Shown here one piece after another: positions 11,976 to 32,319 of a stretch of DNA of 64,000 nucleotides. The position numbers and the translations under genes were made by a program. Source of the DNA: Natrinema versiforme (GTDB lineage Archaea > Halobacteriota > Halobacteria > Halobacteriales > Natrialbaceae); assembly GCF_005576615.1 (NCBI RefSeq), contig NZ_CP040330.1, positions 2,480,001 through 2,544,000 of the forward strand. Direction: 5' to 3'. The notes under the pieces were generated by a model, which did not search any database, was not told the DNA's origin, and was given only the letters and a program-made list of their open reading frames with translations. Each line of letters begins with the position of its first letter. The first letter of the stretch is position 1.

Positions 11976-12458
11976 ATGCCCACGATCGGCCAGCAAAACG
12001 AGCGCGACCGCGCCGTGTCAATCACGCTCACTCACGTCCTCACGATCGGTATCACGACGATTCTCATCGCCATGCTGTTGACGGCATCAGGAACCATGCT
12101 CGAGTCAGAGACCGAACGCAGCGCCGACGCCTCGCTCGAGACGGTCGGCGAACGGATCGCCGACGAAATCGGCAACGTCGATCAGATCGCGAATGGAACC
12201 GACGATAGCGTGACTCTGACGACCGAGCATCCGCGGACGGTCGCGAGTTCTCGGTACACTATCGAATTACGAACCGACTGTGACGAGCCGCTGCTCGACG
12301 AAGTAGACTGTGTGACACTGACCGCGGAGGACACCGATGCCGTCGCTCACGTGCCGATCAAGACTGACGAAACTATCAGTGAGACGTCGGCGACCGGCGG
12401 CACGATCGAAATCGTCTACGAAAGCGATGAGATATCGATCAGGAGTCGATCCCGATGA
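11976..12458 (+). CDS. Pilin-like protein of the pil operon (DUF7266-like)
   Basis: A 160-residue protein beginning with polar residues and then DRAVSITLTHVLTIGITTIL, a type III signal-like helix related to the RAVS-type N-termini of archaeal pilins. The ectodomain is acidic and has a Cys pair (DCDEPLLDEVDC). It overlaps the next gene by ATGA. It resembles DUF7266 from memory. A pilin-like export route through PibD is inferred, not shown. Confidence 0.7.
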   Translation: MPTIGQQNERDRAVSITLTHVLTIGITTILIAMLLTASGTMLESETERSADASLETVGERIADEIGNVDQIANGTDDSVTLTTEHPRTVASSRYTIELRTDCDEPLLDEVDCVTLTAEDTDAVAHVPIKTDETISETSATGGTIEIVYESDEISIRSRSR

Positions 12459-26979: not shown

Positions 26980-27220
26980 TCGGATGAGCCCCGTATTACT
27001 CCGGACCGGGGTTCACGTAGCGGTGGCGCGCGCTGGGGTGCGTCGAACAGCGAGTGAGACGGACCCCGAAGCTGCGCGAGGGATGAGTGAGCGACGCCGG
27101 AGCGAGCGAATCGGTTGGGGAGGGCGTGGCGATTCCCTGCCGCCACGAGAGCAGCGCACTCGTCTTCACCGGTGACCTCCACGTACCGATTGAACAGAAC
27201 AGGTCTCAGTTCGATACTCA
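26980..27220. repeat. Non-coding stretch resembling a dispersed haloarchaeal intergenic sequence
   Basis: The 424-bp gap between tfe and the MBL gene has no credible gene. Its middle is rich in gagcga/gcgag-type words and in GGTTGGGGAGGGCGTGGCG, a type of sequence I remember from intergenic regions of other haloarchaea. Open frames across it give Arg/Ala/Pro-rich products without domains. Dispersed repetition is inferred from memory and needs a search. Confidence 0.35.
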
Positions 27221-30760: not shown

Positions 30761-31327
30761 CTAGTCTCGCTCCGCGTCAGCGTCCGGGTCCGCCGACTCG
30801 ACGCGCTTGCCCGTCTCCATCGGGAGCACCTCCCGATCGGCACCGCTCCACTCCTGATCGAGTTCGCGGCCCTCGAACAACCGGTCGAGGAAGACGGCGA
30901 GACCGGCCACTTCGGAGTGGGGCTGGTTGGTGACGCCGACGTTCCAGTCGGCTTCCTCGTAGACGTCGAAGGGAACCTTCTCGGAGCCGACGACGAGTAA
31001 GAGCGACTCGCCCTCGGTCGCGTGGGCCGACCGAATCTCGTCCTCGACGTCTTGGACGCGCTCGCCGTACATCGTGAGGTGGACGACCCGCCCCTCCCAG
31101 TCGCGGATGACGGCTTGGGGCGACTCCGTGAGTTCGGCCTCGAAGGGGCCGCCAAACCGATCGGTGATGTCCGCGACGGTCTCGAGCGACTGGCCGGCGT
31201 TGTCGGGAAAGAGCACGCGGTCGGCACCCAGCGCCCGCGCGGTCAGTCCGACGTGGGTCGTCATCCGATCGTCCCGACCGGGGCGGTGGCCGAGCCGGAG
31301 GACGACGACCTCGCTATCGTCGTGCAT
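30761..31327 (-). CDS. tRNA (cytidine(56)-2'-O)-methyltransferase (aTrm56)
   Basis: A 188-residue SPOUT methyltransferase that would modify C56 in the tRNA T-loop. Family marks are VVLRLGHRPGRDDRMTTHVG at the N-terminus, the knot segment LLLVVGSEKVPFDVYEEADW and NVGVTNQPHSEVAGLAVFLD. This enzyme is archaeal and stand-alone. ATG 31327 was chosen; an in-frame GTG four codons upstream is the alternative. It is convergent with the membrane/winged-helix gene, 48 bp apart. Confidence 0.92.
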   Translation of the reverse strand: MHDDSEVVVLRLGHRPGRDDRMTTHVGLTARALGADRVLFPDNAGQSLETVADITDRFGGPFEAELTESPQAVIRDWEGRVVHLTMYGERVQDVEDEIRSAHATEGESLLLVVGSEKVPFDVYEEADWNVGVTNQPHSEVAGLAVFLDRLFEGRELDQEWSGADREVLPMETGKRVESADPDADAERD

Positions 31328-31406
31328 GTGCGAACTCACTCTCGGACGGGGTTAGGGGGTTTCGTTTTCCAACCGAACTTTTTGTGCCTCGGGTTCGCTC
31401 GTGGTT

Positions 31407-31726
31407 CGAGAGACCGGAGGCCTCTCGTCATCACGAAAGACGCTTCGCGTCTTTCGAACGACTTTGCTTGCTCACCGCTCGTCTGCTCACGGGCGCGTAG
31501 CGCCCGTTCGCATGGCCCGCGGGACCGAAGGTCCCGCGCTGGCACAAAAACGACCTCAGAAATCGGAGATTTCTGATGGGCCCGCGAGAGCAGAGCTCTC
31601 GCGGACTTCGATGAAAAACGCCGAGAGAGCGAAGCTCTCTCGAGCCCTCGTTCGTTCCTTCGGAACTCACGAGGAAGACCGAGCGCGCCAAGGGCGCGCT
31701 CGGTGAACCGCTCGCTTCGCGAGCGG
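31407..31726. repeat. Array of at least nine perfect hairpins with 3-nt loops
   Basis: The 515-bp gap between the Trm56 and cupin genes holds consecutive inverted repeats whose stems differ in sequence but whose loops are all exactly 3 nt. Perfect stems are at 31434-31456 (10 bp, loop TTC), 31489-31507 (8, GTA), 31518-31538 (9, GAA), 31556-31576 (9, GGA), 31582-31604 (10, AGA), 31622-31642 (9, GAA), 31654-31666 (5, TTC), 31678-31704 (12, AAG) and 31708-31726 (8, TTC). One more at 31407-31427 has a single mismatch (loop GGA). No gene is supported here; open frames through it are by-products of the palindromes. Confidence 0.85.
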
Positions 31727-31811
31727 ATGCTGCGCTGCACCCACCGATCGGTTCGTTCCCCTCTCGTGCCCCGATCAGTCGTGACCTGACACGATTCGAG
31801 GCTCGAGAACG

Positions 31812-31819
31812 CTTATACT
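31812..31819 (+). promoter_or_regulatory. TATA box of the cupin gene
   Basis: CTTATACT is centred about 28 nt before ATG 31843, consistent with a leaderless transcript. Confidence 0.55.
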
Positions 31820-31842
31820 GTTGTGCCTACCAGTCACAGGCT

Positions 31843-32319
31843 ATGGAGAAGGTCAACGAATCGACGCTTGATTGGAACGAGTCCGATCACGGGGAGACTG
31901 CGTTCCGTCGAAAGGAGCTCTCGAGCGCCGTCGACGCCGACGACCTCGGCTGCAGCCTCTACGAACTGCCGGCCGGGATGCGGTCGTGGCCCTATCACTA
32001 CCACACGGCCAACGAGGAGGCGATCTACGTGCTGGCGGGCGACGGCCAACTCAAAGCCGAAGACGGCCTCGAGCCGCTTTCGGCCGGCGACTACGTGGCG
32101 CTCCCGGCGGACGAACGCGGCGGTCACAGGGTCGTCAACGACGGCGAGGAGCCGCTCCGGTATCTGGCGATATCGACGATGAACGAGCCGGATATAACCG
32201 TCTACCCCGAGATGGAGAAATTCGGCGTCTTCGTCGGTTCACCGCCGGGCGGCCGCGACGAGCGGTCGCTCGAGGGCTACTACAACCTCGACGACGAGAC
32301 GGCGTACTGGGACGAGTAG
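31843..32319 (+). CDS. Cupin domain protein
   Basis: A 158-residue single cupin. Motif 1 is WPYHYHTANEEAIYVLAGDG with the expected two His and one Glu metal ligands; motif 2 is GDYVALPADERGGHRVVN with the last His. A C-terminal tail (PPGGRDERSLEGYYNLDDET) resembles a conserved haloarchaeal/proteobacterial cupin subgroup. The substrate is unknown. It is a monocistronic gene preceded by the hairpin array. Confidence 0.85.
   Translation: MEKVNESTLDWNESDHGETAFRRKELSSAVDADDLGCSLYELPAGMRSWPYHYHTANEEAIYVLAGDGQLKAEDGLEPLSAGDYVALPADERGGHRVVNDGEEPLRYLAISTMNEPDITVYPEMEKFGVFVGSPPGGRDERSLEGYYNLDDETAYWDE

Follow-up and report, generated by a model that had tools for sequence, protein, structure and literature searches.

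The spacer between the Trm56 and cupin genes of the genome studied here raises the question of how a row of hairpins came to have loops of a single length, three nucleotides. This array was analysed within a 64,000-nucleotide stretch of DNA (the window), and loop statistics were drawn from about 700 kb of the window genome and related loci. The reading that we favour, with a probability of roughly 0.75, is that very small mobile two-hairpin units (55-60 bp) have piled up in the spacer, with hairpin-mediated inversion of the loops in addition.

The hairpins of the spacer

The array is flanked by divergent genes, Trm56 on the minus strand and the cupin gene on the plus strand. Eight of its triloop hairpins have perfect stems of 8-12 bp; a ninth has a short core and a tenth one mismatch. 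The genes and hairpins are as follows.

30761..31339, minus strand: Trm56 tRNA ribose 2'-O-methyltransferase (PF01994), divergent neighbour of the array
31843..32319, plus strand: cupin-domain protein (PF07883), divergent neighbour of the array
31407..31427, no strand assigned: hairpin 0, 9 bp with one A-C mismatch, loop GGA; in Natrinema versiforme JCM 10478 the hairpin is perfect and reads GAGAGACC GGA GGTCTCTC
31434..31456, no strand assigned: hairpin 1, 10 bp, loop TTC; GAA in N. versiforme JCM 10478 with an identical stem (inversion)
31489..31507, minus strand: hairpin 2, loop GTA on the plus strand; second hairpin of inserted unit 1 on the minus strand
31518..31538, minus strand: hairpin 3, 9 bp, loop GAA on the plus strand; first hairpin of inserted unit 1 on the minus strand
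31556..31576, minus strand: hairpin 4, 9 bp, loop GGA on the plus strand
31582..31604, minus strand: hairpin 5, 10 bp, loop AGA on the plus strand
31622..31642, minus strand: hairpin 6, 9 bp, loop GAA on the plus strand
31646..31674, minus strand: hairpin 7, core 31654-31666 of 5 bp, loop TTC
31678..31704, no strand assigned: hairpin 8, 12 bp, loop AAG; CTC in N. versiforme JCM 10478, GAC/GTC in other species
31708..31726, no strand assigned: hairpin 9, 8 bp, loop TTC; GAA in N. versiforme JCM 10478 with an identical stem (inversion)

The nine perfect three-nucleotide-loop hairpins of the preliminary description were all found where it had placed them. The array does lie within the Trm56-cupin gap, but it occupies positions 31407-31726 of a spacer running from 31340 to 31842 and does not fill the whole. 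The same description held that the fixed loop length is not expected by chance, and the counts agree: in the intergenic DNA of the window (5.5 kb), eight three-nucleotide-loop stems of at least 8 bp are present against 0.1 expected from first-order Markov controls, while loops of every other length in the range 0-12 account together for one hairpin with a stem of at least 8 bp. Chance alone often produces perfect hairpins of 7-8 bp in coding DNA. However, an origin of the array through chance or GC-rich composition is refuted by this count and by the uniform loop length, together with the recurrence, covariation and near-zero controls given below, and we assign it next to no probability.

Extra two-hairpin units and their families

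The spacer was compared with that of Natrinema versiforme JCM 10478, the closest named relative. Apart from three blocks found only in the window, the two spacers correspond nearly base for base, with few substitutions and 95% identity. In the alignment these blocks are 60, 55 and 58 bp long and each contains exactly two hairpins; a separate indel scan placed blocks 1 and 2 identically and block 3 less exactly.

31481..31540, minus strand: inserted unit 1, 60 bp, M1 family, two hairpins; orthologous site empty in N. versiforme JCM 10478
31550..31604, minus strand: inserted unit 2, 55 bp, M2 family, two hairpins; missing from N. versiforme JCM 10478
31617..31674, minus strand: inserted unit 3, 58 bp, two hairpins, dispersed copies having been seen for units 1 and 2; missing from N. 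versiforme JCM 10478

No clear target duplication was seen at the three empty sites. In three further Natrinema species the outer parts of the spacer are alike and units 2 and 3 are again missing; gain of the blocks in the window lineage would accordingly be a simpler reading of the alignments than loss. Elsewhere, a 49-bp two-hairpin unit is present in genome G031 and missing from genome G010 at the orthologous site. Most of the array is best read as separate two-hairpin units that were inserted, some of which belong to multi-copy families, a result that runs against the earlier exclusion of duplication as a source.

A BLAST search with the array as query matches all 29 genomes of the genus, and its M1 and M2 pieces hit many further sites. 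Stems of the array recur as triloop hairpins throughout the genus, with 0 or 1 match per genome for the reversed-pattern control, and one stem has 49 matches in genome G023. The stems had been called unrelated, but several of them are in fact dispersed multi-copy hairpins. The architecture of M1 is TAGYGC-stem-nnn-stem-GCRnACCAT-N-CGAAC-stem-nnn-stem-GTGAG-N'-AG. A strict version of this pattern has 82 copies in 15 of the 29 genomes (reversed-pattern control, 0). Across Halobacteriales, a looser motif for the second hairpin reaches 34 of 77 genera (70 of 243 genomes), and its control matched once overall. Fourteen haloarchaeal plasmid records, and no phage records, were returned by an M1 similarity search. 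M1 thus appears to be a widespread, undescribed family of mobile two-hairpin units; no published description of an M1-type family was found in the open-licence literature.

Several other repeats were observed along with these families. A larger repeat (GCGGTGGCGCGCGCTG ... GCCACGAGAGCAG) lies at about 27018-27160 of the window and elsewhere often carries M1. Its sequence strings were not found in the open-licence literature, and the window stretch around it is missing from N. versiforme JCM 10478. An M2-type two-hairpin unit occupies the same place in an apparent IS transposase gene at five loci (L194, L201, L205, L214 and L240), with loops that differ among the five and are inverted in some pairs. 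At 12070-12179 of locus L066, in the window genome, three triloop hairpins follow the end of a gene, the first spanning the stop codon, with repeated ACATCGAAAA stretches in between. Finally, the tandem repeat GCCCCACACAGTCCCAGTAGAACCA at about 17855 of locus L277 (G031:C11, about 287855) differs in copy number between genomes G031 and G010.

Folding, target sites and loop inversion

A comparison of 39 distinct M1 sequences strongly supports pairing within the stems. Pairs are formed in 98.7% of cells, against 89.3 (sd 0.6) in shuffles and 25-46% in slid controls, and 82 cells carry double changes where shuffles give 24. In 78 of the 82 copies N and N' form a pair, which is GC, AT or CG. The loop of the second hairpin is three nucleotides long in 80 of 82 copies, although the search left this gap free (10-26 nt), while the stem varies in length; this test of loop length is valid for the second hairpin only, since the linkers, the length of the first hairpin and part of the stem positions were set by the pattern. 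Beyond the genus, gap lengths of the second hairpin are odd in 87 of 93 cases, and a three-nucleotide loop follows by a simple rule in 80 of 93. The preliminary description had proposed that some mechanism must make or keep triloop hairpins, and had suggested a comparison of strains for compensatory changes. Such changes are found in other species, with pairing kept, and together with the constant loop beside stems of varying length they uphold that part of the proposal; a hairpin-binding protein, which it had named as one such mechanism, is a possible keeper of the triloops, and no candidate was identified.

Loops of the second hairpin are GNA in 27 copies and TNC in 32, so that their orientation is not fixed; those of the first hairpin are GNA in 33 and TNC in 15. 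The CGAA/TGAG motif gives tandem G-A mismatches on one strand only, and therefore one strand of M1 is probably the one that folds, as judged from known G-A pairing. On the minus strand of the window, hairpin 2 is flanked by the tandem G-A motif CGAAC...GTGAG, and hairpin 7 extends beyond its core through two tandem G-A mismatches (CCTCGT-GA-GTTCC/GGAAC-GA-ACGAGG). One hairpin of the relatives was considered as an imperfect palindrome under repair and was rejected as such, being a tandem-G-A hairpin.

Covariation and a strand-specific tandem G-A motif are also what might be expected of structured transcripts (terminators, 3' UTR or leader RNA, or small RNA) in which selection on RNA folding keeps both stems and loops, and the minus strand does give a branched fold with a long closing stem. 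However, no Rfam family matches: six loci with related elements gave nothing at the gathering score, and the best matches in the window fall far below it. Neighbouring genes are only weakly biased in orientation (16 convergent, 8 divergent and 12 co-directional, n=36), the window copy lies between divergent genes, and a transcript leaves both the clean two-hairpin insertions and the insertion of M1 into M1 unexplained. This explanation is accordingly considered unlikely.

The insertion of M1 into M1 is seen in the TAGTGC flavour of the family. All 17 copies of this flavour are preceded by CGAA, TGAA or CGAG, with ACG or ATG downstream, and each has a CGAAC...GTGAG-type hairpin around it; for seven copies this hairpin belongs to another M1, and for the rest to two further hairpin contexts. 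At most 1 bp is duplicated at these insertion sites. Genome G032 has five inner units that are almost the same in sequence although the outer M1s around them differ from one another, a pattern that would fit recent movement of one unit. No CGAA-type target is present at the window's own M1 copy. It is possible, though we would put it at somewhat under even odds, that elements of about 60 bp spread into tandem-G-A hairpins of their own kind, so that arrays grow by nesting, through an enzyme that acts on the folded strand and belongs to no known type of transposase.

A second kind of change affects the loops. Two TTC loops of the window are GAA in N. versiforme JCM 10478 beside identical stems, and a third loop, AAG, is CTC there. 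A small set of seven element-type orthologous hairpins, drawn from two species pairs, was picked by eye from an intergenic list that also held other hairpins without inversion; three of their loops are inverted exactly, two more are inverted and differ by one substitution, and the remaining two have not changed. In matched hairpins of coding DNA from the same two species pairs (n=39), 37 loops are unchanged, two have single substitutions and none is inverted. Only clean pairs enter the inversion counts, because comparing all orthologous loops with one another brought together adjacent hairpins and stems that were not identical. The most frequent loops are TTC and GAA, and chance identity is possible for single cases; still, a change at all three loop positions beside unchanged stems, in DNA that is about 90-95% identical, is hard to explain otherwise. 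These inversions lend support to a replicative or recombinational process acting on the hairpins; replicative template switching had been suggested earlier.

Given such inversions, the hairpins might have originated in place by replicative template switching, which would make perfect palindromes and flip loops while leaving stems unchanged. One hairpin that has tandem G-A mismatches in relatives is a perfect palindrome in both the window genome and N. versiforme JCM 10478, in agreement with such a process. However, template switching would not yield one unit at many sites in many genera, does not target the arms of CGAAC...GTGAG hairpins, and leaves linkers such as ACCATnCGAAC unexplained; in addition, units 1 and 2 are matched elsewhere, in part, as units by BLAST. 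As the origin of the array it is very unlikely, but it can be a second process on units that already exist.

For the array itself, a pile-up of mobile units with loop inversion remains the preferred reading. The units would have been inserted beside or inside older hairpins of the Trm56-cupin spacer by a putative trans-acting enzyme that recognises a folded strand, most likely single-stranded DNA and the strand with the G-A pairs, and for which the arm of a similar hairpin would be the site of insertion. Separately, folded hairpins may be inverted through cruciform resolution or template switching.

Candidate movers and known elements

One set of candidates for such an enzyme would be the TnpA proteins of IS200/IS605-type transposons, if the units were terminal remnants of these transposons comparable to the PATEs of Haloquadratum. 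As in PATEs, there is a near-terminal pair of palindromes, with many haloarchaeal copies (PMC3119063). The lack of a target duplication and the short 5' target of PATEs may also be shared, since the 17 TAGTGC copies follow such a target with at most 1 bp duplicated, but the M1 copy of the window does not follow one. One M1-like unit, on a Halostagnicola larsenii plasmid (L337, 2490-2545), overlaps the last codons at the 3' end of tnpB on the opposite strand. However, the M1 signature (CCATnCGAA) was found near none of 30 TnpA loci (PF01797) and none of 30 TnpB loci (PF07282) of the genus. Several M1-rich genomes have no match to the Y1 transposase family (PF01797), among them G008 and G036, with 15 and 11 strict M1 copies, respectively, and no match at E <= 0.001. 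An origin as such remnants is thus quite unlikely.

Other mobile repeats also differ from M1. M1 begins with TAGYGC and ends with GTGAGnAG, with no terminal inverted repeat, and unlike a MITE it has neither that feature nor a clear duplication at the three empty sites. REP and REPIN sequences resemble M1 as intergenic palindromes that are often paired and have many copies. They are associated with RAYTs, which are Y1 transposases, whereas several M1-rich genomes are without a Y1 match, and no GTAG-type tag was seen in M1.

The nearest known kinds are the double-hairpin elements and GC clusters of mitochondria and the transposase-free repeats of Haloquadratum. M1 is a short, dispersed two-hairpin unit that is present or absent at orthologous sites, as double-hairpin elements are. 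The mitochondrial elements are likewise very short GC-rich hairpin units with loops that vary more than stems, sporadic spread and merging, and the yeast GC42-type GC clusters and double-hairpin elements of fungal mitochondria have putative target duplications of 2-3 nt (PMC4478555). In contrast, M1 is found on an archaeal chromosome, with three-nucleotide loops in its second hairpin, covarying stems and no clear duplication, and the target of one flavour is the arm of a tandem-G-A hairpin. The likeness is one of kind only.

The PATEs and SMRs of Haloquadratum walsbyi are, like M1, short haloarchaeal repeats with no transposase, and they have no target duplication (PMC3119063), a feature that M1 may share. 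The ends of PATEs are related to IS605-type transposons, whereas the test of M1 for such ends was negative. SMRs are about 80-110 bp long, have terminal inverted repeats, which M1 does not, and insert into palindromes of other elements by a mobilisation described as "enigmatic" (PMC3119063). For the inversions, a precedent exists in plastid DNA, where hairpin-loop inversions are short and tied to palindromes (PMC2903610); no mobile family is involved there, while the inversions seen here affect the three-nucleotide loops of a dispersed element.

Mobile units of this size that lack a recognisable enzyme have been described chiefly from mitochondria. The haloarchaeal family has numerous copies, empty sites and a target that is defined for one of its flavours, in a genetically tractable group of hosts, and would make the movement of such units testable; its loop inversions report naturally on the formation of hairpins inside living cells. 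Where such units occur, caution may be called for in annotating haloarchaeal spacers as terminators or small RNAs.
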